Part shown: piece by piece, positions 7,991 to 25,261 of the stretch
Layout: each line of letters begins with the position of its first letter
How positions within the stretch are numbered: the first letter of the stretch is position 1
Assembly (NCBI RefSeq): GCF_013032445.1
Contig: NZ_WQCA01000016.1
Coordinates: 1-64,000 of the forward strand
Length of the DNA stretch: 64,000 nucleotides
Direction: 5' to 3'
Source of the DNA: Ruegeria arenilitoris
Lineage (GTDB): Bacteria; Pseudomonadota; Alphaproteobacteria; Rhodobacterales; Rhodobacteraceae
The notes under the pieces: model-generated
Database searches by the model: none
The model's input: only the letters and a program-made list of their open reading frames with translations
Told to the model about the DNA's origin: nothing
Translations under genes and position numbers: made by a program

Positions 7991-8010
7991 AAGTAACTAG
8001 TTAGTGCATT
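7991..8010. promoter_or_regulatory. Operator copy 1: AAGTAACT-N4-AGTGCATT
   Basis: It lies between the TetR gene and the ABC substrate-binding protein gene. The left arm, AAGTAACT, is identical to the arm of the perfect palindrome at 18405-18424. The right arm, AGTGCATT, matches the AGTTACTT arm at five of eight positions. It also contains the perfect 10-bp palindrome TAACTAGTTA. It is a likely TetR operator controlling both divergent genes. Confidence 0.6.
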
Positions 8011-8105
8011 AAGGGCGTGCGTGCGGCTGTGCGGGATCGTCGCCGGGGAGGGGTCGACACGGGAACGCCATAGATCCCAAGTGCTGATGGAAAAGGGAGG
8101 ACGTC

Positions 8106-9212
8106 ATGTCATTCATCAAGAAATACATCGAACAAGAGACGATAACCCGTCGTAACCTGCTGCTGGCATCTGTCTACGGTGTAGGTGGGGTTGCCGTTTC
8201 AAGTATGCTGGGCGGCATGGCGCGCGCTGCGATTACCGACCCGACCGTTGCCTGGTCGTATCGCAACCGGACAAACCCCTACTGGAACGAAATCGTTTCT
8301 GGTGGTGAGGCCTTTGTGGAAAGCCTCGGCAAACCCAAGGATTTCCTGACCCACCTGATCAACGAAGGCTCGTCGGAAAAATCGCTAGCGGACGTCAAGG
8401 CGCTGCTGTCCAAGACCAATGGTGAACTGGCTTTGGCGATCGACACCAACGACGCACCCAACGCGCGTCCGGTTGTTGAATCCTGCGTTGAGGCAGGGGC
8501 CTATGTATCGACCCTTTGGAACAAGACCGATGACCTGCACCCCTGGGATTTCGGCGACAACTATGTAAGCCACATGAGCTGGTCCGACGAAGGCCCGGCG
8601 GAACAGACTGCGCGCATTCTGTTGGACGCCATGGGCGGCTCGGGCGGTGTTGTCCATCTGGGTGGTATCGCGTCGAACAACCCGGCCATTGAACGTCTGG
8701 CTGGTCTGAAAACCGCGCTGTTGGATTACCCCGATGCGGAACTGTTGGCTGCGGAACCTGCGGACTGGGATACGCAAAAGGCCAACCAGGTCATGAGCGC
8801 TTTCCTGACCCGTTACGGTGATGAGATCAAAGGCGTGCACTGCGCCAACGACACCATTGCCTATGGCGTGCTCGAAGCGTTGCGGGCCGAAGGTATCGAA
8901 GACCTGCCGATCGTGTCCTATGACGGTAACCCGCAGGCCGTTGAGCTGGTCGGCGAAGGCAAGATTCTGGCAACCGTGTTCACCAACCCACATTGGGGTG
9001 GCGGCATTACGGCGGCATTGGCCTACTACGCAGCCACCGGCCACTTCAAACCGTCTGACGAGCCCAATGAGCATCGCGAATTCTACGGCCCGACCATCAT
9101 GGTCCGTCCCGAAGACGCGCTGGCGTTCAAGGCGCAGTATTTGGACAGCGCTCCGGCGTATGATTGGAAAGATTTCTGGTCCACGTCGAACGGCCAGATT
9201 CAATACAAGTAA
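8106..9212 (+). CDS. Ribose-type ABC transporter substrate-binding protein, Tat-type signal
   Basis: A 368-residue periplasmic binding protein of the Peripla_BP_4 / CUT2 class. The N-terminus carries a twin-arginine-like signal (TRRNLLLAS, Arg15-Arg16) followed by a hydrophobic stretch ending in MARAA, so export by Tat is likely. The mature part shows the two-lobe pattern of ribose/galactose-type binders: AIDTNDAPNARPVVESCVEA, GGIASNNPAIERLAGL and VHCANDTIAYGVLEAL. GGGAGG precedes the start. It is the first gene of the rightward operon. The ligand cannot be read from sequence; CUT2 systems carry monosaccharides, polyols and other small molecules. Confidence 0.9.
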   Translation: MSFIKKYIEQETITRRNLLLASVYGVGGVAVSSMLGGMARAAITDPTVAWSYRNRTNPYWNEIVSGGEAFVESLGKPKDFLTHLINEGSSEKSLADVKALLSKTNGELALAIDTNDAPNARPVVESCVEAGAYVSTLWNKTDDLHPWDFGDNYVSHMSWSDEGPAEQTARILLDAMGGSGGVVHLGGIASNNPAIERLAGLKTALLDYPDAELLAAEPADWDTQKANQVMSAFLTRYGDEIKGVHCANDTIAYGVLEALRAEGIEDLPIVSYDGNPQAVELVGEGKILATVFTNPHWGGGITAALAYYAATGHFKPSDEPNEHREFYGPTIMVRPEDALAFKAQYLDSAPAYDWKDFWSTSNGQIQYK

Positions 9213-9220
9213 AGGTGTCT

Positions 9221-9246
9221 GCGGGCTGGTACCTGAACCGGCCCGC
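9221..9246 (+). terminator. Intergenic stem-loop after the binding-protein gene
   Basis: A ten-pair stem, GCGGGCTGGT / ACCGGCCCGC (one T-G wobble), with a six-base loop starts 9 bases after the binding-protein stop. No U-run follows. Such hairpins commonly protect the upstream mRNA segment so that the binding protein is made in excess over the membrane parts. Confidence 0.6.
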
Positions 9247-9302
9247 TTACTCGGGTCTGCGGTGAACGCGACCCCGCCAATTCACTCAGTGGGAGGAAGC
9301 AC

Positions 9303-10268
9303 GTGAGCAATGTGCTGACACGGGATGTTCTGATCAAATGGGCGCCCCTGATCGTCCTTTTGGTTCTGGTCCTGTTTTTCACGGCGATGGAGCCTCGATT
9401 CTTTTCGCTGCGCAATTTTGCCCGTATTGGCATTTCGTCCGCGCCGGCGCTGATGGTGGCCATCGGGGTCACGTTCATCATCATCATGGGGTCGATTGAC
9501 CTGTCGATGGAGGGCACCGTGTCGGTCTGCGCCGTGGTGTTTGCGTTTGCCTTTATCGGCATGGGTGGAACGCTGGCGTCCTGGGCCTGGTTGGCCATTC
9601 CGCTGGCCCTGCTGGTGGGCTCGGTGATCGGGCTTGTTAACGGTCTTGTTCATGTATTGCTGAAAATCCCTTCTTTCATGGCCTCGCTGGCGATGGGGTT
9701 TGTGGGCACCGGCTTTGCCCTGCTGCTGACCGGGGGTGACCGGATCCGGGTCGAGGATGACCTGTTCCGATCCCTGCTGACCGAGCGTTGGTTCGGGTTC
9801 CCGATTATGTGCTATGTCGCGCTGCTGTTTCTGCTGATCGCCTGGTTCATCCAGTCGCGCACGACGCTGGGCCGGAACTTCTACGCTGTCGGTGGCGGAG
9901 AAGAACTGGCCCATGCCTCGGGCCTGAACGTCAACCGCGTGCGGATCATGGGGTTTGCGTTGGCCGGTATGTTCTATGCCGTCGGCGCGCTGCTGGCGGT
10001 TGGACGGATCGGGATTGCCGAAACCGCGACGGGTTCGAACTTCATGTTTGTGTCGATCACTTCAGTTGTGGTTGGCGGCACCGCGCTGTGGGGCGGCATC
10101 GGTGGCGTGTGGAACACGCTGATCGGGGTGCTGATCGTCAACGTGATCAACAACGGCATGGTCGTGATCGGACTGCCCGGCTACGTGCAGGACGGTGTTC
10201 TGGGCGTGTTGGTCATCGCTGCGGTGGTTCTGTCGACTGACCGCAAATCCGTAACCTTCGTGAAATAG
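9303..10268 (+). CDS. Ribose-type ABC transporter permease (RbsC-like)
   Basis: A 321-residue inner-membrane protein with about 8-10 hydrophobic segments. It has the family signatures GSIDLSMEGTVSVCAVV near residue 62, the cytoplasmic EAA-like loop GRNFYAVGGGEELAHASGLN near residue 190, and GGTALWGGIGGVWNTLIGVL near residue 258. It is one of two paralogous permeases flanking the ATPase gene and probably forms a heterodimer with the 11797 product. GTG 9303 follows GGGAGGAAGCAC. It sits second in the operon, after the stem-loop. Confidence 0.93.
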   Translation: MSNVLTRDVLIKWAPLIVLLVLVLFFTAMEPRFFSLRNFARIGISSAPALMVAIGVTFIIIMGSIDLSMEGTVSVCAVVFAFAFIGMGGTLASWAWLAIPLALLVGSVIGLVNGLVHVLLKIPSFMASLAMGFVGTGFALLLTGGDRIRVEDDLFRSLLTERWFGFPIMCYVALLFLLIAWFIQSRTTLGRNFYAVGGGEELAHASGLNVNRVRIMGFALAGMFYAVGALLAVGRIGIAETATGSNFMFVSITSVVVGGTALWGGIGGVWNTLIGVLIVNVINNGMVVIGLPGYVQDGVLGVLVIAAVVLSTDRKSVTFVK

Positions 10269-10278
10269 GGGCGGGCTG

Positions 10279-11787
10279 ATGTACGAACTGATCAATGTTG
10301 ACAAGAAATTCCCCGGCGTCCACGCGCTGAAATCTGTGAACTTTCAGATCGGACGGGGTGAAATCGTGGGTCTGGTTGGCGAAAACGGCGCCGGTAAATC
10401 CACCCTGATGAAGGTCATTTACGGTGCCTATCAGCCCGATGGTGGCGACATCACCATCGACGGCACCAAAGTCCGCTTTCAGAACCCGCGTCAGGCTATG
10501 GATCACGGCATCGGCATGGTGTTTCAGGAGCAATCCCTAATCACCAACCTGACCGTGATGGAGAACATCTTTCTGGGGTTTGAGCAGCAATTCGTCAGCT
10601 ATGGCGTGATCAACTGGAAAGCCATGGCCGATGCCGCGCGCAAGCAACTGGCCAAGGTCAAGCTGGATATCGATCCAGCCATGATCACCTCGAAACTGTC
10701 CTTTGCCCAGCGTCAGCTGGTTGAGTTGGCCAAGGTGCTGACGTTGGAAGAGCGGATCGACGGCGATCTGGTGATCCTGCTGGACGAACCAACCTCGGTT
10801 CTGGCCAAGGAAGAGGTCGAGCTGCTGTTCAGCCTTGTGCGCGAGCTGACCAACCGGGCTTCGTTCATCTTTGTCAGCCACCGCATGGATGAGGTTCTGG
10901 ACCTGTCCGACCGCATCTACGTGATGAAAGACGGCGAGATTGTCGACGTCGTCGCCCATGACGACGCCGAAGTCGATGCGATCCAGCACAAGATGGTCGG
11001 GCGCGACGTAGACAAGGAATATTATCGCGAGCAGAAGCAGAAACCCTATCAGGCTGAGGCGCAGCCGCTGGTTGCCTTCAACGACGTATCCGTGAGCGGC
11101 AAATACGCGAATATCTCATTCGAGCTGCGCCCCGGTGAGGTTCTGTGCCTTGTCGGCACCGAAGGGTCAGGACGCGAGGCGATCCTGCGTACGATCTTCG
11201 GTCTAGAAACCCCGTCCTCGGGCACGGTGGCGCTCAAAGGCCAAACCGTCGGCAAATTCAACGCGCAGGCCGGCGTGGCAGGCGGCGTAGGGTACATCCC
11301 GCGCGAACGCAAGGTCGAAGGTATCGTGGCCGGGATGAACGTCTACGAGAACATGACGCTCAGTCAGATGGGGAATTACGCCAACTCTGGCGTGCTGCGC
11401 ATTGGCGAGGAAAAGTCGCTGGCCAAGCAGTGGATCGACCGTTTGGCGATCAAGACCCCGGATGTCTACAAGGATTGTGGCGGCTTGTCGGGCGGCAACC
11501 AGCAAAAGGTTGTACTGGCCAAGTGGCGCTCTGCCGGGTCGGACATCATCCTGCTGGATCACCCGACGCGTGGCTTGGATATCGGCGCCAAGGAAGACGT
11601 CTATGACATGGTGCGCGAAATGTCGGATGACGGCGTGGGCATCATTCTGGTCGCCGATACGCTGGAAGAGGCCATCGGCCTCAGCCACACGATCATCGTT
11701 CTGAAGGACGGTGTCGAACAGAAACGTTTCGATTGCAGCCCGGGGGACAAGCCGTCGCTTTATGACCTTGTCCACCATATGATCTGA
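10279..11787 (+). CDS. Ribose-type ABC transporter ATPase (RbsA/MglA-like, two NBDs)
   Basis: A 502-residue tandem ABC ATPase energising sugar-type uptake. NBD1 has Walker A GENGAGKSTLMK, signature LSFAQRQLVELAK and Walker B VILLDEPTS. NBD2 has a degenerate Walker A (GTEGSGREAILR, as is usual in this family), a good signature LSGGNQQKVVLAK, and Walker B IILLDHPTRGLD. In that last motif the usual Glu after the Asp is His. The degenerate second Walker A is family-typical. The Glu-to-His change is unusual to my knowledge, but I cannot survey the subfamily. It lies 10 bases after the first permease. Confidence 0.95.
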   Translation: MYELINVDKKFPGVHALKSVNFQIGRGEIVGLVGENGAGKSTLMKVIYGAYQPDGGDITIDGTKVRFQNPRQAMDHGIGMVFQEQSLITNLTVMENIFLGFEQQFVSYGVINWKAMADAARKQLAKVKLDIDPAMITSKLSFAQRQLVELAKVLTLEERIDGDLVILLDEPTSVLAKEEVELLFSLVRELTNRASFIFVSHRMDEVLDLSDRIYVMKDGEIVDVVAHDDAEVDAIQHKMVGRDVDKEYYREQKQKPYQAEAQPLVAFNDVSVSGKYANISFELRPGEVLCLVGTEGSGREAILRTIFGLETPSSGTVALKGQTVGKFNAQAGVAGGVGYIPRERKVEGIVAGMNVYENMTLSQMGNYANSGVLRIGEEKSLAKQWIDRLAIKTPDVYKDCGGLSGGNQQKVVLAKWRSAGSDIILLDHPTRGLDIGAKEDVYDMVREMSDDGVGIILVADTLEEAIGLSHTIIVLKDGVEQKRFDCSPGDKPSLYDLVHHMI

Positions 11788-11796
11788 GGCCACTCC

Positions 11797-12738
11797 ATGA
11801 GTTTTGAACGTATCAAACCCCATCTGCCCTGGATCACCCTGCTGGTTCTGGTGCTGGTCGTCGGCGCGGCGGATTCCAACTTTCTGCGGCCGGCGAACCT
11901 GATCTCGATGATGGCCGACATTGTGCCGCTGTTCATCATGGCACTGGGGATGACCTTTGCGATCTATATCGGCGGTATCGACCTGTCGGCGCAGTCCATC
12001 GCCAATATGACCACCGTGGTTGCAACCATTGCTCTGCCGACCTTTGGCATCGGCGCGGCGCTGCTGTGCATCCTGTCGGGCGTCGTGCTGGGCAGTATCT
12101 CGGGCTATGTGACGACGCGGCTTTACGTGCCATCCTTCATCTCGACGCTGGCGGTGGGTGGTATCGCCTTTTCCGCGGCGCAGTACATGTCGGGTCAGCG
12201 CGCCCTGTTCATGGATGCGACATTGCGGGATTCGACCTTTGGCTGGATGACCGGCTCGGTTGCCGGACTGCCAAGCGAGCTGATCATTGCGGCCGTTCTG
12301 GTTCTGGGCGCATGGTTTCTGCAATCACGGACAACCTTCGGGCGCGCGCTCAAGGCGGTTGGCGCGGGGGAACCTGCAGCCGTCGCCTCGGGGCTGAACG
12401 TCAATCGGATCAAAATCATGGCATTTGCGTTGTCCGGCGGACTGGCGGCGATTGCAGGCTTGCTGTTCTCGGTGAAACTCTCTGGTGGTTCTCCCACACT
12501 GGCGAACGGGTTCTTGCTGCCTGCAATCGTCGCGGTTCTGGTCGGAGGTACCCCGCTGACCGGTGGTGTCGGCGGGGTCATCAACACGCTGATCGGCACG
12601 CTGATCGTGGCAGTGATCCGGTCGTCGATGTTGTATTTCGAGGTGGATGCGACCCAGCAGCAAATGGTGTTCGGCCTGATCCTGATCGCGGCGATTGCGC
12701 TGACCATCGACCGGACCAAGCTGAGGGTCGTGAAATGA
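11797..12738 (+). CDS. Second ribose-type ABC transporter permease
   Basis: A 313-residue paralogue of the 9303 product with the same landmarks: IGGIDLSAQSIANMTTVV, GRALKAVGAGEPAAVASGLN, and GGTPLTGGVGGVINTLIGTL near the C-terminus. Two different permeases around one fused ATPase suggest a heterodimeric channel. Its stop overlaps the next start (ATGA at 12735-12738), so transport and the alcohol dehydrogenase are translationally coupled, which ties the transported compound to an oxidation step. Confidence 0.93.
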   Translation: MSFERIKPHLPWITLLVLVLVVGAADSNFLRPANLISMMADIVPLFIMALGMTFAIYIGGIDLSAQSIANMTTVVATIALPTFGIGAALLCILSGVVLGSISGYVTTRLYVPSFISTLAVGGIAFSAAQYMSGQRALFMDATLRDSTFGWMTGSVAGLPSELIIAAVLVLGAWFLQSRTTFGRALKAVGAGEPAAVASGLNVNRIKIMAFALSGGLAAIAGLLFSVKLSGGSPTLANGFLLPAIVAVLVGGTPLTGGVGGVINTLIGTLIVAVIRSSMLYFEVDATQQQMVFGLILIAAIALTIDRTKLRVVK

Positions 12739-13772
12739 CCGACACCATGAAAGCCGCCGTCCTCGTGAAGTCCGGCCAGTTTGAGGTACGGGAGGTTCCC
12801 CGTCCCGAACCCGGTCGGGACGAGGTTCTGGTGCGCATTTCACGGGTCGGTATCTGTGGCACGGATATCCACATTTTCAACGGTCACTATGCGGCGGAAA
12901 ACCTGCCGATGATCCCCGGGCATGAATTCACCGGAAATGTCGCAGAACTGGGCGAGGGCGTCTCGGGCCTGACCGTCGGTGCGCCGGTGGTTGTTGATAT
13001 GAATATCGGCTGTGGCACCTGTTTTTGGTGCAGACGGAATGAGATCCTGAACTGCCCCGAGATGCAGCAGATGGGCATCACAATGGATGGGGCCTTTGCC
13101 GAATACATCTGTGTTCCGGCAGGGTTGGTGATCCCGGCGCCGAAGGACGTTCCGGCCGATGTGCTCGCCCTGACCGAGCCTCTAGCCTGCGTTGTGCGCT
13201 GCGCCCGCAAGGCCAATATCACCTTCGGCCAATCTGTCGTGGTGCTTGGGGCGGGGCCGATCGGAAACCTGCACGTCCAGCTGTTGCGTACTATCGGGGC
13301 GGCACCGATAATCGTGGCGGATTTGTCCGAAGACAGGGTGCAGATGGCGTTGGAGGCTGGCGCGGATGTGGGTGTCACCGACCCGTCAGAGCTGGAGGGA
13401 ACCGTTCTGTGCCATACGGAAGGTCGTGGTGCGGATGTGGTGATAGAAAGCGTCGGGCTGCCTGCGCTTTACCAAAAGGCGGCGCGGCTGATCCGCAAAG
13501 GTGGGCATATCGCGGCCTTCGGCCTTACTGGCGCGGGCGAGACATTGCCCGTCGATATTTTGCAAACGATCCTGCAGGAAAACTCGATCAAGGGGTCGGT
13601 TGCGGGCATGGGGCAGGATATGCACGACGCTCTGACCTTGCTGACCCATGGCCGGATCAAAACCGAGCGCTTCACCAGTGCCTCATACGCGCTGGATCAC
13701 ATTCAACAGGCGTTTGAAAGCTTTACTGACAGGCCTGGTGATTTGAAGACCCAGATCGTCCTGACGCATTAG
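12735..13772 (+). CDS. Zinc-dependent alcohol/polyol dehydrogenase (MDR family)
   Basis: About 345 residues, similar to sorbitol/threonine dehydrogenase-type MDR enzymes. Catalytic zinc ligands are visible in GICGTDIHIFNG and GHEFTG; structural zinc cysteines are in CGTCFWCRRNEILNC; the NAD(P) Rossmann motif is GAGPIGNLHVQLL near residue 175. A much longer frame is open upstream inside the permease, but ATG 12735 overlaps the permease stop and starts the usual MKAAVLVKSGQFEVREVP core. It probably oxidises a hydroxyl of the imported compound. The substrate is not inferable. Confidence 0.93.
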   Translation: MTDTMKAAVLVKSGQFEVREVPRPEPGRDEVLVRISRVGICGTDIHIFNGHYAAENLPMIPGHEFTGNVAELGEGVSGLTVGAPVVVDMNIGCGTCFWCRRNEILNCPEMQQMGITMDGAFAEYICVPAGLVIPAPKDVPADVLALTEPLACVVRCARKANITFGQSVVVLGAGPIGNLHVQLLRTIGAAPIIVADLSEDRVQMALEAGADVGVTDPSELEGTVLCHTEGRGADVVIESVGLPALYQKAARLIRKGGHIAAFGLTGAGETLPVDILQTILQENSIKGSVAGMGQDMHDALTLLTHGRIKTERFTSASYALDHIQQAFESFTDRPGDLKTQIVLTH

Positions 13773-13793: not shown

Positions 13794-14351
13794 ATGACCG
13801 TTGAAGTTTACACGTCCAAACCCGAAGGCATGATCCCCAACAGCCGCTTTCCGCTGCTGATCCATCGCGGAGCGATACCAGGTGGCGGGGTAGATGCAGT
13901 AAAGGCCCGGTTCCGTGAAAACGGATGGTGCAACAACTGGGAATATCCCGGGGTGTATGAATACCCTCACTTCCACTCGACCTCTCACGAATGCCTGGGC
14001 TGCGCCCGCGGCTGGATGGAGTTCAACCTGTCGGTCGAAGGCTGGACCCGGGTCCGGATCGAGGCCGGTGACGTGATCGTTATGCCCGCCGGGGTCAGCC
14101 ATGAGATGGTTGGCCATTCCGAGGACATCATGATGTGCGGCGGCTATGCCGGTGGTCGCGATTGGGACAACATTCAGGAAGCCTTCCTGACGCCCGAGAT
14201 GTTTCAGGCCGCGGTAAAACGGATCATGATGCTGCCGATCCCCGACAAGGACCCCGCGACCGGGGATATTCTGCATCAATGGCATGATGCGCCGTCATCC
14301 GTGGATGGCGGCTGGAACGATTTCCGCGACGGGCTGGACGCCTCTGCCTAG
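13794..14351 (+). CDS. Cupin-domain protein
   Basis: A 185-residue protein with a cupin barrel in its middle: HFHSTSHECLGCARGWMEFN supplies the metal-binding His cluster, and AGDVIVMPAGVSHEM is the second cupin motif. Similar proteins serve as isomerases, dioxygenases or small-ligand binders; nothing here fixes the reaction. GGGAGGAAAGACC precedes the ATG, and the gene lies between the alcohol and aldehyde dehydrogenases in the same transcript. It plausibly acts on an oxidised intermediate. The N-terminal 50 residues outside the barrel I do not recognise. Confidence 0.8.
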   Translation: MTVEVYTSKPEGMIPNSRFPLLIHRGAIPGGGVDAVKARFRENGWCNNWEYPGVYEYPHFHSTSHECLGCARGWMEFNLSVEGWTRVRIEAGDVIVMPAGVSHEMVGHSEDIMMCGGYAGGRDWDNIQEAFLTPEMFQAAVKRIMMLPIPDKDPATGDILHQWHDAPSSVDGGWNDFRDGLDASA

Positions 14352-14380: not shown

Positions 14381-15883
14381 ATGGACCAAAACAGCCAGAT
14401 ACTGACACCCCCCTCTGAACCCCGCGAGTTCGGGTTTTTCATGGACGGCGATTGGGTGCCTGCCGGGGATCGCGACATGTTCGAGCGGTCTTCGCCCGGA
14501 CATGGCGTGCCTGTAACTCGCATCCCGCGCTGCACCGAAGAGGATTTGAACGCTGTGGTCGCCTCGGCCCGGACGGCGTTTGATGACCGCCGGTGGTGCG
14601 GCCTTTCCGGTGCCGACCGTGCTGCGGTGCTGCTGAAGGCGGCCGAGCTGATCCGCCAGCGCACGGATGAGATCGCCTATTGGGAAACGCTGGAAAACGG
14701 CAAACCGATTGCGCAGGCGCGGGGTGAGGTCAGCGGCTGTGTCGGCATGTTCGAATTCGCCGCCGGTCTGGCGCGGGCGCTGCACGGGGACAGTTTCAAC
14801 AACAGCGGTGATGGAGCCATGGGTATCGTCACGCGCGAGCCGGTCGGCGTGGTCGGCCTGATCACGCCGTGGAACTTCCCGTTCCTGATCCTGTGCGAGC
14901 GTGTGCCCTATATTCTGGCGTCGGGCTGCACCATCGTTTCGAAACCATCCGAAGTGACCAGCGCGACGACCCTCTTACTGGCGGAGATCCTGTCGGAGGC
15001 CGGTTTGCCGGATGGCGTATTCAACGTGGTCACTGGATCGGGCAGCGTGATTGGTCAGAAACTGGCCGAGCATATGGACGTGGACATGCTGTCATTTACG
15101 GGCTCAACCGCAGTGGGCCGCTCGGTCGTTGCGGCGGCAGGGCAGAGTAACTTCAAGAAACTCGGGCTGGAGTTGGGCGGCAAGAACCCGCAGATTGTGT
15201 TCGCCGATGCCGATCTGGAAGACGCTGCCGATGGTGTCGCCTTTGGCATCGCGTTCAACACGGGGCAGTGTTGCGTATCAGGTGCGCGGCTGTTGGTCGA
15301 ACGCTCGGTCGCGGACAAGTTCGCCGAAATGGTCGCCGATAAGCTGCGCAAGGTGCGCGTGGGTGATCCTCTGGACGAGCGTACGCAGGCCGGTGCCATC
15401 ACCACCGATGCGCAGAACCGGACGATCCTGTCCTACATCGCCAAAGGTCAGGAAGAGGGCGCGACCCTGCTGGCCGGGGGCACCACGCCCGAAATCTCGG
15501 GCGGGCAATACATCGATCCGGTCGTCTTTACCGGCGTAACCAACGACATGGTGATCGCCCGCGAAGAGATTTTCGGTCCGGTTCTGGTCGTGATCCCGTT
15601 TGACACGATTGACGAGGCGATCTCGATTGCCAACGATACCGAATACGGTCTGGCGGCCAGCGTCTGGACCAAGCATATCGATAAGGCACTGACGATCTCT
15701 CGCCGTGTTCAGGCCGGGCGGTTCTGGGTGAACACAACTCTGGCCGGTGGACCCGAGTTGCCGATTGGCGGGTTCAAAGCCTCGGGCTGGGGTCGTGAGG
15801 CCGGGATGCATGGGGTCGAAGAATACACGCAGATCAAGTCGATCCATGTCGAGATCGGCAAACGGTCGCATTGGGTAGAGTGA
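14381..15883 (+). CDS. NAD(P)-dependent aldehyde dehydrogenase
   Basis: A 500-residue ALDH-superfamily enzyme. It has the NAD-binding and oxyanion Asn segment GLITPWNFPFL, the motif TGSTAVGRSVVAAAG, the general base Glu in KLGLELGGKNPQIV (near residue 265), and the catalytic Cys in NTGQCCVSGARLLVE (near residue 300). Length is standard. It converts an aldehyde to the carboxylate, probably the product of the upstream Zn-ADH or the downstream GMC enzyme, and would supply an acid for the CoA transferase encoded in the same regulon. Its TGA overlaps the next ATG by one base. Confidence 0.95.
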   Translation: MDQNSQILTPPSEPREFGFFMDGDWVPAGDRDMFERSSPGHGVPVTRIPRCTEEDLNAVVASARTAFDDRRWCGLSGADRAAVLLKAAELIRQRTDEIAYWETLENGKPIAQARGEVSGCVGMFEFAAGLARALHGDSFNNSGDGAMGIVTREPVGVVGLITPWNFPFLILCERVPYILASGCTIVSKPSEVTSATTLLLAEILSEAGLPDGVFNVVTGSGSVIGQKLAEHMDVDMLSFTGSTAVGRSVVAAAGQSNFKKLGLELGGKNPQIVFADADLEDAADGVAFGIAFNTGQCCVSGARLLVERSVADKFAEMVADKLRKVRVGDPLDERTQAGAITTDAQNRTILSYIAKGQEEGATLLAGGTTPEISGGQYIDPVVFTGVTNDMVIAREEIFGPVLVVIPFDTIDEAISIANDTEYGLAASVWTKHIDKALTISRRVQAGRFWVNTTLAGGPELPIGGFKASGWGREAGMHGVEEYTQIKSIHVEIGKRSHWVE

Positions 15884-17558: not shown

Positions 17559-18377
17559 TCAATCCCACTTGGGCGCCCAAGGCACCAAGTCTTCGCCAAC
17601 AATTCGGTAACCGGTGTGGGTTTTGGCGTCGATCCGGTCCATGTCGCTGCTGGACAGGGTGAAATCCATAACGTCGAAGTTGGCGTCGATATTGGCGCGT
17701 TTGGTCGACATCGTGTTGATCGAAACACCTTTCTGCAAAATCCAGCGCAAGACAACCTGTCCCGCAGTCTTGCCGTAGGTCTGGCCAATCTCGTCAAAGA
17801 TCGAGTGTTTGAAGACCTCGCCGCGCGCGACCGAGCAGTAGGACGACAGGGGAATGCCGGTTTCCGAGGCCGCCGCCAGCAGAGTGTTTTGATTGAGCAG
17901 CGGGTGAAACTCGACCTGATTGGTGACCAGCGGCGTGTCGATGATCTTGACCGCGTCGCGCATCATCTGGGCGGTGTAGTTCGATACGCCGATATTCTTG
18001 GCCAGCCCCTTGGCGTGGGCCTGTTCCAGCAGTTTCAACGACGGGGCGATATCTTCGCCAATCGGCGGCCAGTGCAGCAGCAGGACGTCGACATAGCCCA
18101 GTTGCAGTTTCTTCAGGCTTTCCTCCACTGACGGAATGAATGCCTCTTCGGTGAAATTGTCGGGGTGAACCTTTGTGGTCACGCAGATTTCGTCCCGGTC
18201 GAAACCAAGCTCGGCCAGAGCGTCGCCGGTTTCCTTTTCATTCTCATACATCTGCGCGGTGTCGAACGAGCGATACCCAACCTCGGCAGCGATCTTCATC
18301 GCATCGCGAAGCTCGTCCCCGGTTAGGGGATAGGTGCCGAAGGTGCGCTGATTTGTTTTCTGAAAGTAAATGTTCAC
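17559..18377 (-). CDS. Aldo/keto reductase
   Basis: About 272 residues, AKR superfamily (2,5-diketogluconate reductase-like). Tetrad residues are visible: Asp and Tyr in SFDTAQMYENE, Lys in VTTKVHPDNF, His in LLHWPP. IGVSNYTAQMMRDA and the C-terminal LSSSDMDRIDA are also typical. An ATG exists at 18398, but GTG 18377 has GGGAGG at ideal spacing and starts MNIYFQKTN, so I prefer it. It is monocistronic, transcribed leftward from the operator-bearing region shared with the CoA transferase. It is likely to act on a carbonyl intermediate of the regulon's pathway. Confidence 0.92.
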   Translation of the reverse strand: MNIYFQKTNQRTFGTYPLTGDELRDAMKIAAEVGYRSFDTAQMYENEKETGDALAELGFDRDEICVTTKVHPDNFTEEAFIPSVEESLKKLQLGYVDVLLLHWPPIGEDIAPSLKLLEQAHAKGLAKNIGVSNYTAQMMRDAVKIIDTPLVTNQVEFHPLLNQNTLLAAASETGIPLSSYCSVARGEVFKHSIFDEIGQTYGKTAGQVVLRWILQKGVSINTMSTKRANIDANFDVMDFTLSSSDMDRIDAKTHTGYRIVGEDLVPWAPKWD

Positions 18378-18404
18378 GGTGATCCTCCCAAAGAACAACT
18401 TTGA

Positions 18405-18424
18405 AAGTAACTTAATAGTTACTT
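18405..18424. promoter_or_regulatory. Operator copy 2: perfect AAGTAACT-N4-AGTTACTT palindrome
   Basis: Eight-bp arms are perfectly symmetric around TAAT. This is the best of five copies. It lies 28 bases upstream of the aldo/keto reductase start, where it could overlap its promoter. Arms and 4-base spacing match the other copies (7991, 18492, 25166, 25242). The length and spacing suit a TetR-family dimer. Confidence 0.75.
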
Positions 18425-18491
18425 AGCGTCAGGTCAATTCCCGCGTTTTGCTAATACCTGTTGATTTTCGCGGTCTCTCACGGCATAAAAG

Positions 18492-18511
18492 ATATAACCA
18501 GTTAGTTACTT
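18492..18511. promoter_or_regulatory. Operator copy 3: ATATAACC-N4-AGTTACTT
   Basis: The right arm is identical to the palindrome at 18405-18424; the left arm matches at five of eight positions. It ends 13 bases before the CoA transferase ATG, so a bound repressor would block ribosome access or elongation as well as initiation. Together with copy 2 it covers both divergent starts. Confidence 0.65.
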
Positions 18512-18524
18512 TCGTGAGGATCGC

Positions 18525-20105
18525 ATGACCAAGCAGATGACGGCGCGCGAAGCAGCAAATCTTGTGCCTGACGGGGCGACCGTGGCGGTGAATTCGTCCA
18601 GCGGCCTGTGCTGTCCGGATGCGGTTCTCAAAGGTCTTGGCGAACGTTTTGAAGATGAAGGCGCACCACGGGACCTGACGACGATTCACCCAATCGCAGC
18701 GGGTGATATGTTCGGCACCAAAGGGGTGGATCACATCGCTAAGCCGGGACTTCTGACTCGGATCATCGGAGGGTCGTACCCGTCGGGTCCCAGCAAGGCG
18801 GAACCCCCCTTGGTGTGGCAGATGATCACCGCCGAACAGGTGCGCGCCTATAACGTGCCCTCGGGTATTATTTTCGACATGCTGCGCGAGGCGGCGGCCA
18901 AGCGTCCGGGCGTTCTGACCAAGGTGGGCATGGACACATTTGTCGATCCCGACATCGAAGGCTGTGCTATGAATGACGCGGCCCGCGCCGAACCCATCGT
19001 CAAGCGTATGGAGTTCGAGGGCGACGACTGGCTGTATTTCAAATCCATGGCCCCTAATGTCGCGATCATCCGCGCGACCACGGCTGACGAAAAGGGCAAT
19101 CTGAGCTTTGAACACGAAGGCGCCTATCTGGGTGCGATGGAAATGGCGCTGGCCGCGCGCAACAATGGCGGCGTGGTCATCGCGCAGGCCAAGCGTGTCG
19201 CCGCCGCAGGCAGCATCCGCCCGCATGATGTGCATGTGCCGGGTATTCTGGTGGATGCTATCGTTGAAGCGCCGGATCAGCTGCAAACCACTGCCACCGA
19301 ATATGATCCCGCGATTTCAGGTGAGTTGACGCGTCCGCTGGAAAGTTTCCGAACGGCCGAGTTCAATGTGGGCAAGGTGATTGCGCGCCGTGTGGCGATG
19401 GAGTTGAAGGACGGCTGGGCGGTCAATATCGGCTTTGGCATCTCAGCCAATGTCCCCCGCATTCTGGTTGAGGAAGGCCTCCACGGCTCGGTCACATGGA
19501 TGATCGAACAGGGGGCTGTGGGCGGCGTGCCGCTGCTGGACTTCAAATTCGGTTGTTCGGCCAATGCCGAGGCGTTCGTGCCCTCGCCACATCAGTTCTG
19601 CTATTTCCAGGCGGGCGGGTTTGATGCCTCGCTCTTGTCGTTCCTCGAAGTCGACAAACACGGATCAGTCAATGTCTCGCGTCTGTCGGCCATTCCACAC
19701 CGGACGGCGGGAGCGGGTGGTTTTGTCGATATCACGGCGCGTGCCCGCAAGATCGTGTTCTCGGGAAATTTCAACGCCGGGGCTAAGATGGCAATTGAAA
19801 ACGGACAGGTTAAAATCCTGCAAGAGGGCAAAGTTGCTAAATTCGTCGATGAAGTCGATCAGATTTCCTTCTCGGGCACACGCGCCAAGGCGCAGGGGCA
19901 GGACGTGACCTATGTGACCGAACGCTGTGTCATCAAACTGACCGATCAGGGGTTGATGGTCACGGAAATCGCGCCCGGTCTGGACGTGCAGCGCGACGTT
20001 CTGGATCAGGCCGCAACACCTTTGTTGGTGTCGGATGATCTGAAAACCATGGATACCGCCCTATTTAATCCGGCCCTGATGGGGCTGGACCTGACTGCCG
20101 CGTGA
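18525..20105 (+). CDS. Acyl-CoA:carboxylate CoA transferase (propionate CoA-transferase-like, family I)
   Basis: A 526-residue fused alpha-beta CoA transferase. The N-terminal half begins TAREAANLVPDGATVAVNSS. The catalytic Glu is probably in WMIEQGAVGGVPL near residue 330, followed by the GFDASLLSFLEVDKHGSVNVS segment of the family and FVDITARARKIVFSGNF. These enzymes move CoA between an acyl-CoA and a free acid, here most simply activating the acid made by the ALDH. GTGAGGA precedes the ATG. The stop overlaps the enoyl-CoA hydratase start (TGATG). Confidence 0.93.
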   Translation: MTKQMTAREAANLVPDGATVAVNSSSGLCCPDAVLKGLGERFEDEGAPRDLTTIHPIAAGDMFGTKGVDHIAKPGLLTRIIGGSYPSGPSKAEPPLVWQMITAEQVRAYNVPSGIIFDMLREAAAKRPGVLTKVGMDTFVDPDIEGCAMNDAARAEPIVKRMEFEGDDWLYFKSMAPNVAIIRATTADEKGNLSFEHEGAYLGAMEMALAARNNGGVVIAQAKRVAAAGSIRPHDVHVPGILVDAIVEAPDQLQTTATEYDPAISGELTRPLESFRTAEFNVGKVIARRVAMELKDGWAVNIGFGISANVPRILVEEGLHGSVTWMIEQGAVGGVPLLDFKFGCSANAEAFVPSPHQFCYFQAGGFDASLLSFLEVDKHGSVNVSRLSAIPHRTAGAGGFVDITARARKIVFSGNFNAGAKMAIENGQVKILQEGKVAKFVDEVDQISFSGTRAKAQGQDVTYVTERCVIKLTDQGLMVTEIAPGLDVQRDVLDQAATPLLVSDDLKTMDTALFNPALMGLDLTAA

Positions 20106-20869
20106 TGGAACACTTTCTGCTGGATATCAGCGACGGAATTGCCCGTCTGACGCTCAACCGGCCCGAGCGGCTTAACGCTCTGACCGAGAAGATGATGGAT
20201 GATCTGATGGCGCTGTGTCGTCAGATCGAACATGCCGAGGATGCGCATGTTGTGATCCTGACCGGGGCTGGCAAAGCCTTCTGCGCGGGTGGTGATATTG
20301 ACGCTTGGGCGGCACGGTCGGTGGAGGGGTTCGGGCGCCACTGGTTGCGCGATGGCCATCAGGCATTGGATGCGCTGACCCGTTTGCGTCAACCGGTGAT
20401 TGCGGTTCTAAATGGCCATGTACTGGGCGGTGGATTGGAACTGGCGGCCTGTGCCGACTATCGCATTGCGGAATCGCATATCCGCATTGGACAGCCGGAA
20501 CCCGCGCTTGGGATCATCCCCGGCTGGTCTGGGACGCAGCGCACCGTGCGCCGTTTCGGCTCACAATTGGTACGACGCATGGCGATCTTTGGTGAGGAGT
20601 TTTCCGCGAGCGATGCTCTGACCTTAGGTCTGGTCGATCTAGTCGCAGAAAAAGGTCAGGGTCTTGCGGCTGCTACGGATCTGGCCGATCGGATGCGCCA
20701 TCGCGGGCCGGTCGCGACCGAGTTGGTGAAAATGCTGATCAACGCCGCCGAAGGCGAAGAGAGTGAGCGGGTGTTTGAATCGCTAGCAGGTTGGGTCGCC
20801 GCCGCGCAGCCCGAGTTACAGGTCGGTCTGGCCGCATTCAAAGACCGCAAAAAGGCGGATTTCTGGTAA
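20105..20869 (+). CDS. Enoyl-CoA hydratase/isomerase family protein
   Basis: About 254 residues, crotonase superfamily. Oxyanion-hole segments are GAGKAFCAGGDIDAW (near residue 58) and VLNGHVLGGGLELAACADYR (near residue 100). Catalytic-Glu regions are GGGLELA and QPEPALGIIPGWSGTQR. GTG 20102 is also possible, but ATG 20105 overlaps the CoA-transferase TGA. The enzyme hydrates an enoyl-CoA, isomerises it, or catalyses a related crotonase reaction. It is translationally coupled to the CoA transferase, so it acts on a CoA ester formed in this pathway. Confidence 0.93.
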   Translation: MEHFLLDISDGIARLTLNRPERLNALTEKMMDDLMALCRQIEHAEDAHVVILTGAGKAFCAGGDIDAWAARSVEGFGRHWLRDGHQALDALTRLRQPVIAVLNGHVLGGGLELAACADYRIAESHIRIGQPEPALGIIPGWSGTQRTVRRFGSQLVRRMAIFGEEFSASDALTLGLVDLVAEKGQGLAAATDLADRMRHRGPVATELVKMLINAAEGEESERVFESLAGWVAAAQPELQVGLAAFKDRKKADFW

Positions 20870-20893: not shown

Positions 20894-21205
20894 ATGATAC
20901 GTCATCTGGTGCATCTGCGCTTTGAAAGCGATGTCTCCGAGGCTGAGAAGTCCGCTCTTTATATGGATCTGGAAGGTTTGAATGGGCATATCGACGGTAT
21001 TGTCGATTTCCAGAGTCGCAGAAATGTGTCTGTCGAAACCGATCTTGTGCGCGATTTCAACGACATGTTCTGGTTTGACTTCCGGGATGCGGCAGTACGA
21101 GATGCGTACCTTGTCGACCCGACCCATCAGGAAATCGGCGGCCGCATCGTGGCGAAAACCGTGGGCGGTGTGGACGGCGTGTTTGTCTGCGATATCGAGG
21201 TTTGA
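20894..21205 (+). CDS. Dabb-type stress-responsive alpha-beta barrel protein
   Basis: A 103-residue protein beginning MIRHLVHLRFESDVSEAEK, the usual opening of Dabb-domain proteins (dimeric ferredoxin-like barrels), followed by a family-like central NDMFWFDFRDAAVRDAYLVD. GGGAGGGAAG precedes the ATG. It is the last gene of the CoA-transferase operon, with its end 10 bases from the end of a convergent gene. Dabb proteins include small enzymes and cyclases acting on polyketides or aromatics. The specific role here is unknown. Confidence 0.8.
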   Translation: MIRHLVHLRFESDVSEAEKSALYMDLEGLNGHIDGIVDFQSRRNVSVETDLVRDFNDMFWFDFRDAAVRDAYLVDPTHQEIGGRIVAKTVGGVDGVFVCDIEV

Positions 21206-21214
21206 TCGCGGAGC

Positions 21215-22075
21215 CTAACAGCAGGTTCTGAAGCGATCCACGATCACGTCCAGAACCTCGTTCGGGTCTCGTTTCCACCATTTCTCGGCCGAGAAAATCT
21301 CAACCTCGCACAGGCCATCATACCCCGCATCCTCAACGGCCGCGCGCAGCGCGTACAGATCGGCAACGCCGTCGCCCATCATGCCCCGGTCCAGCAGGAC
21401 GTCCGAGGTATCGGCCAGCCAGTCGCATAGGTGATAGCCGAGAATCCGGCCCTTGGCGCGGGTGGCCAGCGTATCGGCCAGTGTCGTGTCCCACCAGACG
21501 TGATAAACGTCGATGGCAACGCCCACATTATCCGCGCCAACCGTTTCGCAGACGTTCAGCGCATCCGCTGCGGTCATCAGACAGGTACGGTTGCCGGCGG
21601 TCGCTGGGTTCAGCGGTTCAAGGGCCAGTTTCACACCGCGTTCCGCTGCGTATGGGGCCGCGCGCGCCACGCGGTCCGCAAGGATTTTCTGGCTATCCAG
21701 AACCCCTTTGGTTCCCGGTTCCGGGCCGCCGGTCACGATGGTCAGGACATCAGTTTCCAGCGCGGCGGCCTGATCGATCGACAGGTGAAAATCATCCATG
21801 ATTTCCTGATCGGAAGGCAGCGCAAGCGGCCCGGTCAGGAACGGTGTGCGGCACAAGCCGACAACCTGCATCCCTGCTTCGCGCACACGCTGGCCGATCT
21901 GCGCCGCGCGCGCGTCCAGCTCGCGCCGCCAGAAGGTAATACCGCCATATCCGCGTGCTGCGCAGGCATTGATCACCTGCTCTGGGCTCCACCCCGCGCC
22001 GTGGCCATCTAGATTGTGACCCAGAGTGGCCGTGTTCAGCGCCAGCGCGGAGTGATCCTGCGAAAAATCGCGCAT
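21215..22075 (-). CDS. Sugar phosphate isomerase/epimerase-like TIM barrel
   Basis: A 286-residue protein of the xylose-isomerase-like AP2Ec fold. Landmark strands include LALEPLNP (metal-binding Glu), VGVAIDVYHVWWDT (metal-binding Asp/His), GYHLCDWL, and LCEVEIFSAEKWWKRDPNE at the C-terminal barrel end. The family isomerises or epimerises sugars and cyclitols with a divalent metal. It is the last gene of the leftward acyl-CoA dehydrogenase operon, 5 bases after the DUF993 gene. The partnership with DUF993 suggests successive steps on a keto-sugar or polyol acid; that is inference. Confidence 0.88.
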   Translation of the reverse strand: MRDFSQDHSALALNTATLGHNLDGHGAGWSPEQVINACAARGYGGITFWRRELDARAAQIGQRVREAGMQVVGLCRTPFLTGPLALPSDQEIMDDFHLSIDQAAALETDVLTIVTGGPEPGTKGVLDSQKILADRVARAAPYAAERGVKLALEPLNPATAGNRTCLMTAADALNVCETVGADNVGVAIDVYHVWWDTTLADTLATRAKGRILGYHLCDWLADTSDVLLDRGMMGDGVADLYALRAAVEDAGYDGLCEVEIFSAEKWWKRDPNEVLDVIVDRFRTCC

Positions 22076-22080
22076 TGTGC

Positions 22081-23229
22081 TCAGGCCCCGTAGAGTTTCA
22101 GCATGTGCCCCATGCGTTCAACCGCCAGATCGGGATCGCGCAGCAACCCGCATTCATCGGCTATTTTGAAACAGTCTGTGAAATAGGGCAGGGACCGGGT
22201 CGCCTGCGCGCCGTTCAGCATAATGAAATGGTCCTGAAACCCGTTCAGCCAGGCCAGAAACACAACGCCGGTTTTATAGTACTGGGTCGGCGCCCGGAAG
22301 ATATGACGCGCCAGCGGCACGGTCGGATCAAGTGTTGCGCGGAAGGTCTTGGCGTCTCCGGCGCTCAGCTTGCTGACCGCATAAGCCGCTGCAGGGGCAA
22401 GAGGGTCAAAAATCCCCAGCAGCGCGTGCGAGTGGCCCTGATCGTCGCCTTCGATCAGCTCGGGGTAGTTAAAGTCGTCGCCCGTATACATGCGAACGCC
22501 TTCAGGCAGGCGGCGGCGCATGATGATCTCTTTCTCGGCGTCCAAAAGAGAAATCTTGATCCCGTCCACCTTGTCCACATTGGCTCCGATGATCGACAGC
22601 GCGGTGTCGAGCGCATCGTCAAAGCTGTCTGATCCCCAGTACCCGACAAGCTGCGGGTCAAACATCGCACCCAGCCAGTGCAGGATGACAGGTTCATCAC
22701 AGGCGGCCAGAACGTCGTTGTAAACCGAGATATAGTCATCCGGCCCGGTCGCCACTTTGGCCAAAGCGCGCGAAGCCATCAGGATGATCTGCCCGCCCAG
22801 TTTCTGGATCGCCTCAACTTGCTCAAGATAAGCGCGGCGCACGTCATCCAGCGATTTCGCATCCGCCGGGTCCAGATGATCCGTGCCGCAGCCATTGCCG
22901 ACCAGCGCGTCGGGCAGTTCTTCCTTGGTGCGCCGGATCAGTTCCAGCGCGCCGTTCCAATCCAGCCCCATGCCGCGCTGCGCGGTGTCCATCGCTTCGG
23001 CGATGCCCATGCCCATTCCGGCCAGATAGTGGCGGAATTCCATGGTCTTGCCCCAGTCTACATGGGCCGGGCCGGTAGGGTCGTGATCGCCAAAGGGGTC
23101 CGCCACCACATGGGCTGCGGAATATAGAATCCGAGCCGAGTTTGGGGTCAGCTTCGACGGCGCGACCGGGGTGCCGACTAGCGCATAGTCTTGCAGTTTT
23201 CCGGTGGTATCAGGCAGCTGAATTTTCAT
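22081..23229 (-). CDS. DUF993 family protein (dihydrodipicolinate-synthase-like barrel)
   Basis: A 382-residue protein resembling DUF993 proteins, which are distant relatives of the DHDPS/NAL aldolase barrel. Visible stretches include SAAHVVADPFGDHDPTGPAH, the region after VGNGCGTDHLDP, and KVDGIKISLLDAEKEI, where the Lys of GIKIS is at the position of the Schiff-base Lys of class I aldolases. If that alignment holds, it would be an aldolase or lyase cleaving a keto acid; I have no direct proof. It lies 9 bases downstream of the SDR gene. No experimentally settled function is known to me. Confidence 0.75.
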   Translation of the reverse strand: MKIQLPDTTGKLQDYALVGTPVAPSKLTPNSARILYSAAHVVADPFGDHDPTGPAHVDWGKTMEFRHYLAGMGMGIAEAMDTAQRGMGLDWNGALELIRRTKEELPDALVGNGCGTDHLDPADAKSLDDVRRAYLEQVEAIQKLGGQIILMASRALAKVATGPDDYISVYNDVLAACDEPVILHWLGAMFDPQLVGYWGSDSFDDALDTALSIIGANVDKVDGIKISLLDAEKEIIMRRRLPEGVRMYTGDDFNYPELIEGDDQGHSHALLGIFDPLAPAAAYAVSKLSAGDAKTFRATLDPTVPLARHIFRAPTQYYKTGVVFLAWLNGFQDHFIMLNGAQATRSLPYFTDCFKIADECGLLRDPDLAVERMGHMLKLYGA

Positions 23230-23238
23230 CGAAATACC

Positions 23239-24009
23239 TCAGAAACGGGGAACTAGCATTCCGGCATCGGCCGAAATGGCCTGACCGGTTGTGTAGGGAA
23301 GTTTGCCGCTGGCCAGCGATGCGATAATCCGACCCATGTCCTCGGGCTGGCCGACACGCGGGAACAGGGTCAGCCCGTCCTTGGCGCGCTGGTCATACAT
23401 CTCGATCACCGGGGCGGTCATGTCGGTGGCGATCAGGCCGGGCTGCACGTCGTAGACGGCAATGTTTTCTTGCCCCAACCGCACGGCAAAGGTCTTCGAG
23501 ATCATTGCGGCAGCAGCTTTGGACGCGCAATATTCGGCGCGCGGAACGGCCACGGCTACAGCGTTCGAAGACGTCACGTTGACGATGCTGTAAAAGAGTT
23601 TTTCGTCGCGATCGCTGGCAACAAGCCGTTTGGCAAAGGCCTGCGACAGGAAGAACATCGCCTTGGTGTTGATGGCCATGCAGCGGTCATAGCTGGCCTC
23701 GCTGACCTCAAGCAGATCGCCGCGTTGCATCACCCCCACGCCTGCGTTGTTCACTAGGGTTGTCAGCGGGCCTATTTCCGCTTCGATGGCAGCCAGTTGG
23801 TCGTCATGCGTACCGATTTCCGAGACATCAAAAGGTGCTGCAATCGCAGGCACTTCGAGGGCGCGTATCGTGTCCAATGCGCCCTGCAATTCGTCATCCA
23901 TTTGAGGGCCGTTTATCGCTATGGCAAAGCCTTCGCGCGCTAGGGCAACGGCCGCTGCCAGACCGATCCCACGGGAGGACCCGGTCACAAGTGCTGCGGG
24001 GCGGCTCAT
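23239..24009 (-). CDS. SDR-family oxidoreductase (3-ketoacyl reductase-like)
   Basis: About 256 residues, classical short-chain dehydrogenase. It has cofactor motif TGSSRGIGLAAAVAL, NNAG at LVNNAGVG (near residue 92), catalytic Ser in VNVTSSNAVAV, and Tyr-x3-Lys in AEYCASKAAAAM (near residue 168). The frame is open far upstream, but ATG 24009 overlaps the acyl-CoA dehydrogenase stop (ATGA) and begins MSRPAALVTGSSRG. In a beta-oxidation-like route it would oxidise a 3-hydroxyacyl-CoA, but SDRs also oxidise sugars and polyols. Confidence 0.93.
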   Translation of the reverse strand: MSRPAALVTGSSRGIGLAAAVALAREGFAIAINGPQMDDELQGALDTIRALEVPAIAAPFDVSEIGTHDDQLAAIEAEIGPLTTLVNNAGVGVMQRGDLLEVSEASYDRCMAINTKAMFFLSQAFAKRLVASDRDEKLFYSIVNVTSSNAVAVAVPRAEYCASKAAAAMISKTFAVRLGQENIAVYDVQPGLIATDMTAPVIEMYDQRAKDGLTLFPRVGQPEDMGRIIASLASGKLPYTTGQAISADAGMLVPRF

Positions 24010-25151
24010 GCGGCAGCTCCCTTGGACAGCAACTCGCGGGCAATGATCATGCGCTGAATTTGGTTGGTTCCTTCGTAAATCTGGGTGATCTTTGCGTCGC
24101 GATACAGGCGTTCGACTTCGAACCCGCGAATGTAGCCCGACCCGCCAAAAACCTGCACCGCGTCCGAGGACCGCTGCACCGCCATGTCCCCCGCAAAACA
24201 CTTGGCCATCGAGCACGCCTTGGTGGCGTCCTGCCCGGTGTCGATCTTGTAGGCTGCCGAATGGACCAGAAGACGGGCGGCTTCGACATCCTTGGCGATA
24301 TCCGCCAGCAGCCACTGGACCCCCTGAAAATCCGCGATGGGCTTGCTGAACTGTTTGCGTTGCTGGGCATAGTCGGTCGCAGCCTCAAGCCCTGCCTGAC
24401 CAATCCCAACCGCCAGAGCGGCGATACCAACGCGGCCTTTGTCCAGAACGCTCATCATCATGTGGAACCCGCGCCCTTCGGTGCCCAGCAGGGCATCTGC
24501 CGGCAGACGGACGTCATCGAATGACAGCGGACCAACCTGGCTGGCGCGTTGACCCATCTTGATCTCTTTGGGCCCACGGATGACGCCATCGGCGTGCAGA
24601 TCGACGATGAAGATCGACATGCCACGGTGCCCGGCCTCGGGATCGGTCCGGGCCAGAACAAAGCCGACATCCGCGACCGGGGCGTTGTGGATCCAGATCT
24701 TACCGCCGTTCAACACCCATCCATCGCCATCACGCACCGCCGTCGTGCGAATTCCTGACACATCGGTGCCTGCTTCGGGTTCGGTGATGCAATAGGCGGG
24801 GCGCAGCTTGGCGGCCAACAGATCGCCCAGCCATTTGCCTTGCTGTTCCGGCGTTCCGTGGCGCACCAGCAGCGTCGAAACCAGTTCCAGCAAGCCGCAT
24901 TGATCGGCAATCGACGCATATCCGCGCGACAGTTCCTCCATCACCAGCGCATAAGTCACCGTGTCGAAACCGGGGCCGCCGAGTTCTTCCGGCACACCGA
25001 TGCCGAATAAGCCCAGCTCGGCCATCTGGTCGTAGATTTCCGCGGGAAACCGCGAGTCGCGATCCAGCTCTTCCGCCGCAGGGCGAATGACATCCTCGGC
25101 AAACTGGCGGGTCATATCGCGAACCTGAAGGTGGGTTTCGGTCAGAAACAT
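24006..25151 (-). CDS. Acyl-CoA dehydrogenase
   Basis: A 381-residue FAD enzyme of the acyl-CoA dehydrogenase superfamily. It carries the CITEPEAGTDVSGIRTTAV flavin motif (near residue 120) and the C-terminal catalytic-Glu motif ITQIYEGTNQIQRMIIAREL (near residue 358). It introduces a 2,3-double bond in an acyl-CoA and passes electrons to ETF. It is the first gene of the leftward operon with SDR, DUF993 and the isomerase-like protein. Operator copy 4 lies 14 bases upstream of its start. The enzyme implies that the pathway makes a saturated or branched acyl-CoA. Confidence 0.95.
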   Translation of the reverse strand: MFLTETHLQVRDMTRQFAEDVIRPAAEELDRDSRFPAEIYDQMAELGLFGIGVPEELGGPGFDTVTYALVMEELSRGYASIADQCGLLELVSTLLVRHGTPEQQGKWLGDLLAAKLRPAYCITEPEAGTDVSGIRTTAVRDGDGWVLNGGKIWIHNAPVADVGFVLARTDPEAGHRGMSIFIVDLHADGVIRGPKEIKMGQRASQVGPLSFDDVRLPADALLGTEGRGFHMMMSVLDKGRVGIAALAVGIGQAGLEAATDYAQQRKQFSKPIADFQGVQWLLADIAKDVEAARLLVHSAAYKIDTGQDATKACSMAKCFAGDMAVQRSSDAVQVFGGSGYIRGFEVERLYRDAKITQIYEGTNQIQRMIIARELLSKGAAA

Positions 25152-25165
25152 CGTAGCGCCCCGTA

Positions 25166-25185
25166 ATGTAACTAATCAGTTACTA
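25166..25185. promoter_or_regulatory. Operator copy 4: ATGTAACT-N4-AGTTACTA
   Basis: It matches the 18405-18424 palindrome at 14 of 16 arm positions with the same 4-base spacer. It lies immediately upstream of the acyl-CoA dehydrogenase start, in the divergent region shared with the second aldo/keto reductase. Confidence 0.7.
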
Positions 25186-25241
25186 ATACGCCTGGCGGAG
25201 GCGGTTCGTCAAGTGGGTTGATCGGTTTCGCCATATGAGTT

Positions 25242-25261
25242 AAATAACCAAACAGTTACTT
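25242..25261. promoter_or_regulatory. Operator copy 5: AAATAACC-N4-AGTTACTT
   Basis: The right arm is identical to the palindrome at 18405-18424; the left arm matches at six of eight positions. It lies 48 bases upstream of the second aldo/keto reductase start. It pairs with copy 4 (center spacing about 76 bases), just as copies 2 and 3 pair at about 87 bases. Confidence 0.65.

Follow-up and report, generated by a model that had tools for sequence, protein, structure and literature searches.

RutR is a catabolic TetR-family regulator of pyrimidine utilisation that has a small-molecule ligand and an operator of the form TTGACCA-N2-TGGTCAA. It is among the best NCBIfam relatives (E-value 6.4e-15) of the TetR-family protein described herein, which is encoded in a 64,000-nucleotide stretch of Ruegeria arenilitoris DNA (contig NZ_WQCA01000016.1; the whole stretch is called the window below), together with a cluster of catabolic genes whose divergent intergenic regions carry five copies of a palindrome. 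That palindrome is unlike the RutR operator, the protein scores 55.5 against a RutR equivalog cut-off of 368, and the associated genes differ. The top NCBIfam match, at 56 bits, is to the ScbR-type autoregulator receptors, with which the protein shares the TetR fold, but it does not reach the cut-off of 150 for that family and its gene resides in a proteobacterial catabolic cluster.

Comparative genomics has been used to rebuild the TetR regulons FabR, FadP, LiuQ, PsrA and RutR in Proteobacteria (PMC5343134), and that work relies on a like kind of evidence and logic, with a regulator that has palindromic sites before the genes of its pathway. Judging from the pathway labels given there, these five regulons concern fatty acids, branched-chain amino acids and pyrimidines, and not a sugar transporter with GMC oxidoreductase, coenzyme A (CoA)-transferase and DUF993 genes. 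The SMc04130-SMc04135 region of Sinorhizobium meliloti encodes a homologous isomerase-like protein (SMc04130, solved as 3ju2) and a DUF993 relative (4dnh). The latter, which we take to be SMc04132, stands in a region that differs from ours in its regulator, SMc04134, and, in the partial records available, in a binding protein of the amino-acid or peptide type; the counterpart of the present cluster in S. meliloti 1021 is instead on pSymA. A description of the regulon or pathway was not found in the literature searched (listings, abstract openings and passages), which leaves their absence from print unproven, and a search on DUF993 returned no paper. The regulator type is ordinary, that of a local TetR regulon, but the regulon and its pathway look undescribed; the original prediction called the pairing of motif and regulator unfamiliar from published work.

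We consider it very likely, on the basis of sequence comparisons, that the TetR protein is a local repressor of five promoters, which govern 20 kb of genes for taking up and degrading a sugar-like compound, acting through the operator AAGTAACY-N4-RGTTACTT and presumably inducible by a compound of the pathway. The original prediction held that five copies of the palindrome, one of them perfect and all with a 4-base spacer, are confined to three divergent intergenic regions. A scan of the window bears this out, given that it yields five matches to AAGTAACT-N4-AGTTACTT with at most three mismatches where shuffling leads one to expect 0.02, and that five matches were reached in none of 100 shuffles. 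The 4-base spacer is retained in all five. They are distributed over three divergent intergenic regions (7877-8105, 18399-18524 and 25152-25309), and a sixth copy within three mismatches is absent from the window. The proposed regulator and its operators are as follows.

7196 to 7876, reverse strand: TetR-family regulator, proposed cognate repressor, with Pfam domains TetR_N (PF00440, 56.8 bits, cut-off 24) and TetR_C_29 (PF17938, 133.7 bits, cut-off 26.2); translation could alternatively begin at the in-frame ATG at 7855
7991 to 8010, forward strand: operator 1, AAGTAACTAGTTAGTGCATT, three mismatches, with a degenerate right half that is kept so in relatives
18405 to 18424: operator 2, a perfect palindrome with no mismatches, serving the gene at 17559
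18492 to 18511: operator 3, three mismatches, serving the gene at 18525
25166 to 25185: operator 4, two mismatches, serving the operon at 25151
25242 to 25261: operator 5, two mismatches, serving the operon at 25310

The consensus was derived from 92 sites in five promoter classes, wherein the inner AC and GT are conserved at 99% and the spacer prefers A/T. Operator 1 departs from the uniform motif originally proposed, in that its right half, AGTGCATT, is a poor match. Within its class, GTGCRT stands in place of the right half GTTACT in 16 of 19 rows, so that either selection or an overlapping signal appears to preserve the weak half. Operator 1 shares an intergenic region with the TetR gene, as had been noted, but the two are not immediately adjacent, being 114 bp apart when the open reading frame (ORF) is taken as listed. 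The same 20 bases also hold an overlapping near-palindrome, GTAACTAGTTAG, which is offset by four bases.

The assignment of the TetR protein as the cognate regulator was proposed originally from gene position, and comparative evidence now supports it. An exact scan for the core GTAACTN4AGTTAC, conducted blind to the TetR gene, matched 13 of 295 family genomes (nearly one genome per genus, and taken as one set across scans because their numbers and handles are equal), and a protein search located close TetR orthologs in 20 of the 295, with 61-73% identity outside the source genome. Half of the ortholog-bearing genomes (10 of 20) contain a core match, versus 3 of the 275 others (p 4e-11, or 4.6e-10 when the source genome is removed; all p-values treat genomes as independent). 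In one of these three exceptions, G273, the contig with the cluster stops before the place of the TetR gene, and in the other two (G255 and G390) the 20 kb read around the match showed no cluster.

An alignment of 24 TetR orthologs, in which many residues of the helix-turn-helix do not vary, was used to retrieve named loci; the best 80 of 592 were kept, some being the same records as the family genomes. By their titles these derive mostly from Rhodobacterales and Hyphomicrobiales, with one Marinobacterium. Scanned with a matrix for the operator, 64 of the 80 loci have a site scoring at least 16 in the 500 bp upstream of the TetR gene (mean 0.37 and largest 11 for 100 permuted matrices), and 72 have one anywhere in the locus. 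The stretches fetched from relatives contain 114 positions scoring at least 16, overlapping registers included, where 60 permuted matrices average 3.95 and reach 15 at most. Thus, the sites are conserved beside orthologous TetR genes, and the same promoters carry them in other genera. Relatives also exhibit additional sites, five before the aldehyde dehydrogenase gene of the first operon and three before GMC paralogs, and so the five sites of the window stand but do not define the full extent of the regulon among relatives. Even where the TetR protein is more distant (43-50% identity) and a DUF993 gene is nearby, as in G146, G090, G117 and G129, sites scoring at least 16 occur within about 5 kb.

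Sites before the catabolic genes are present in 19 of 19 genomes that have the TetR gene and in one of nine that lack it (p 2.9e-6). If G211 and G273, in which a contig end coincides with the TetR gene or its neighbours, are counted as lacking the gene, the latter figure becomes 3 of 11 (p 2.8e-5). This comparison leaves out one of the 20 ortholog genomes (G337, whose catabolic genes were not found) and, on the side without TetR, G359 (no scorable promoter), G211 and G273, and G248 (a DUF993 fragment at a contig end). We prefer the genome counts to those of promoter windows (59 of 61 with TetR, 2 of 17 without), which count some sites twice because divergent genes share one intergenic region. 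In G234 and G177 the TetR gene is on a different contig from the catabolic genes, and the sites are still present. The genome counts therefore indicate that the sites track the regulator rather than the catabolic genes. The TetR match of one further site-bearing genome (G027:C12:68755-69408, L015) was flagged for two internal stop codons, yet its frame is open for 219 amino acids.

Each operator of the window is preceded by a TTGAC or TTGAT box, positioned as listed here.

7970 to 7975, forward strand: TTGACA box in the promoter of the transporter genes, with 21 bp between it and operator 1 and with the inferred -10 element within the operator
18432 to 18437, reverse strand: TTGACC box of the operator 2 promoter
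18461 to 18466: TTGATT box of the operator 3 promoter
25207 to 25212, reverse strand: TTGACG box of the operator 4 promoter
25218 to 25223: TTGATC box of the operator 5 promoter

When such boxes were sought 11-34 bp before the operator across the window and relatives (shuffled means 0.6-1.3, largest 3-7), they were present at all 19 sites of the binding-protein class, 20-25 bp before the operator and nearly always at 21, and at all 19 of the acyl-CoA dehydrogenase class, at 24-29 bp. The remaining classes gave 14 of 21 sites for the CoA-transferase (28-33 bp), 11 of 18 for the second aldo/keto reductase (24-28 bp) and 9 of 15 for the first (13 bp). If the spacer is taken as 16-18 bp, the -10 element of the five window promoters would fall within the operator, across its edge or a few bases before it. 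Given that the operator is located over or just after the inferred -10 element, behind the box, steric repression is likely. The architecture would then be that of a simple repressor, with one operator per promoter placed over the polymerase site.

Binding, repression, the inducer and the substrate are predicted from these patterns as follows. The TetR protein, presumably as a dimer, would bind the palindrome at five promoters in the three divergent intergenic regions, where each operator covers or abuts the inferred -10 and start region, such that the bound repressor would block RNA polymerase. A substrate or intermediate of the pathway would bind the TetR_C_29 domain and free the DNA, and this release would switch on the genes by which a sugar- or polyol-like compound is taken up, oxidised and degraded through CoA-dependent steps.

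Across the 5.24-Mb source genome, the best matches to the motif are concentrated in the cluster, which holds three of the four places with at most two mismatches and both of the places that match GTAACTN4AGTTAC exactly. The five window operators have matrix scores of 20.4-28.6, and the six other places in the genome with up to three mismatches score 15.0-21.3. The highest of the latter (C55:352-371, L004; 21.3) outscores the weakest window operator and is located about 45 bp upstream of an ORF for a 327-amino-acid ornithine-cyclodeaminase-like protein, as well as within a 63-amino-acid ORF on the opposite strand. Another site, found with a different pattern (C63:4432-4451, L222; 19.4), is 22 bp upstream of an ORF for an extracellular binding protein, which is unlike the binding protein adjoining a site in G027. 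Both may be extra targets of the regulon. Scattered genomic copies thus exist, as six weaker or comparable places plus the one seen with the other pattern, but the strongest sites are those of the cluster. A match at 28534-28553, flanked by a DJ-1/PfpI gene (27684-28535) and another, different TetR gene (28627-29244), is weak (13.8) and probably due to chance. Pairs of GTAACCCGYGGGTTAC about 45 bp apart, which 12 of the 54 genomes in the genus contain (L301 and L302 included), were considered and rejected as forms of this operator. In the two genomes read, one member of each pair is the longer hairpin GGCGGTAACCCGTGGGTTACCGCC, which resembles a terminator and in L301 is located between convergent ORFs.

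Several observations weigh against the proposed repressor role and should be kept in mind. The raw count for the genome shows no excess, since 11 places, including the five in the cluster, have at most three mismatches and a reversed control pattern gives 15. The operator matrix was derived from the window's own five sites, whereas the core scan is independent of it. In 16 of the 80 loci, the 500 bp before the TetR gene hold no site that reaches the threshold. Among individual genomes, no TetR ortholog turned up in G336 despite its site (21.7), G188 lacks the TetR gene and has a site just below threshold (15.5), and G337 has the ortholog, with neither a site nor the catabolic genes among the 40 kb examined. 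Two of the genomes without the TetR gene, G255 and G266, are 83% and 80% complete, and three others (G218, G288 and G166) hold more distant TetR relatives. Eight rows of each class in the box counts belong to the window and to seven other genomes of the genus, and the box of the first aldo/keto reductase class is the least supported because it is confined to those eight rows and G309. Moreover, the best -10 hexamers of the window match TATAAT at only three or four of six positions, and the transcription starts are therefore guesses. Lastly, activation may be compatible with the sequence alone.

Indeed, the sequence is silent on the sign of control, and a few TetR proteins do activate. That the present protein is an activator or dual regulator at these promoters is nevertheless improbable, given that the five window operators are located over or just after the inferred -10 element, where a bound protein would be expected to keep polymerase out and not to attract it. 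The presence of two sites in two of the three intergenic regions could also be taken to mean that paired sites cooperate, through looping or side-by-side binding, and the original prediction drew attention to the similar spacing of the two pairs (about 87 and 76 bases). This spacing is not conserved, its extremes being 76 and 101 bp across 15 regions, and 76 and 126 bp across 16, while individual sites generally hold their distance to their own TTGA box. We have therefore rejected paired-site spacing as a signal; two promoters are a likelier source of the pairs than a loop, one site per promoter accounts for them, and cooperation seems quite unlikely.

A different regulator might occupy the sites, and two candidate genes are only a few kilobases away, namely the TetR gene at 28627-29244, which the weak match at 28534 precedes, and a helix-turn-helix/cupin regulator gene at 5643-6302. 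The neighbouring TetR gene was rejected as the regulator since its counterpart is present in only 1 of 17 site-bearing genomes, and neither gene was seen in the fetched regions of relatives that carry both sites and TetR orthologs (for the helix-turn-helix/cupin gene, those regions only). Because the sites follow the 7196 TetR gene and not the catabolic genes, control by another protein is very unlikely. The genome-wide count against the reversed control is the one result that would suit repeats arising by chance or for structural reasons, with no regulatory function. This explanation is contradicted by the enrichment in the window, the core scan, the permuted matrices, the box placement and the tests of TetR dependence, and we regard it as barely credible. 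Repression by the 7196 TetR protein thus remains our preferred reading.

The genes of the cluster are arranged as follows.

8106 to 9212, forward strand: periplasmic sugar-type binding protein (RbsB/AlsB-like)
9303 to 12738, forward strand: ATP-binding cassette transporter permease (9303-10268), ATPase (10279-11787) and permease (11797-12738)
12747 to 13772, forward strand: zinc alcohol dehydrogenase (ORF listed from 12066; the family match begins at 12747)
13794 to 14351, forward strand: cupin-like protein, with a Pfam score under the gathering cut-off
14381 to 15883, forward strand: aldehyde dehydrogenase
15871 to 17484, forward strand: GMC (choline-dehydrogenase-like) oxidoreductase
17559 to 18398, reverse strand: aldo/keto reductase (DkgB-like)
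18525 to 20869, forward strand: CoA-transferase (18525-20105) and enoyl-CoA hydratase (20102-20869)
21215 to 25151, reverse strand: TIM-barrel isomerase-like protein (21215-22075), DUF993 protein (22081-23229), short-chain dehydrogenase/reductase (SDR; 23239-24015) and acyl-CoA dehydrogenase (24006-25151)
25310 to 27215, forward strand: aldo/keto reductase (25310-26326), MaoC dehydratase (26323-26778) and HbpS-like protein (26775-27215)

The operon from the importer to the GMC gene diverges from the TetR gene, with the operator 1 region between them. In the second divergent region an aldo/keto reductase gene opposes those for the CoA-transferase and enoyl-CoA hydratase, and in the third the acyl-CoA dehydrogenase/SDR/DUF993/isomerase-like operon opposes the second aldo/keto reductase, MaoC and HbpS-like genes. 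The cluster and its sites are also present on pSymA of S. meliloti 1021 and pTAV3 of Paracoccus versutus. In some relatives further genes are found inside the cluster, including a glycerate-kinase-like gene (annotated in P. versutus; DUF4147/MOFRL domains in S. meliloti and G027) and, in G027 and G309, genes for phosphoenolpyruvate carboxylase and electron transfer flavoprotein. These additions suggest that the compound is split into an acyl-CoA and a unit of the glycerate type. We propose tentatively, with somewhat less than even confidence, an uncharacterised pathway of Rhodobacterales, Hyphomicrobiales and one Marinobacterium, wherein a sugar- or polyol-like compound would be imported, oxidised by the GMC, zinc alcohol and aldehyde dehydrogenases and converted to a CoA thioester, before dehydrogenation, hydration and cleavage (perhaps by the DUF993 protein) yield a glycerate-type C3 unit and an acyl-CoA. 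Among solved structures the binding protein is closest to 2rjo, for which no ligand is listed, and no substrate could be named from structures.

From the repeats in the window follow a regulator, an operator and a gene set, all predicted, that extend to many genera; S. meliloti 1021 and P. versutus are among the carriers and are open to genetic tests. The layout is shared by numerous bacteria of sea and soil. They join eighteen genes, one from a family of unknown function (DUF993), in a single pathway that is presumably substrate-induced, and an inducer, if found, would give a lead to the substrate. An ORF at 30683-31201, on the right side of the cluster, has a TniB-like match that hints at a mobile element.

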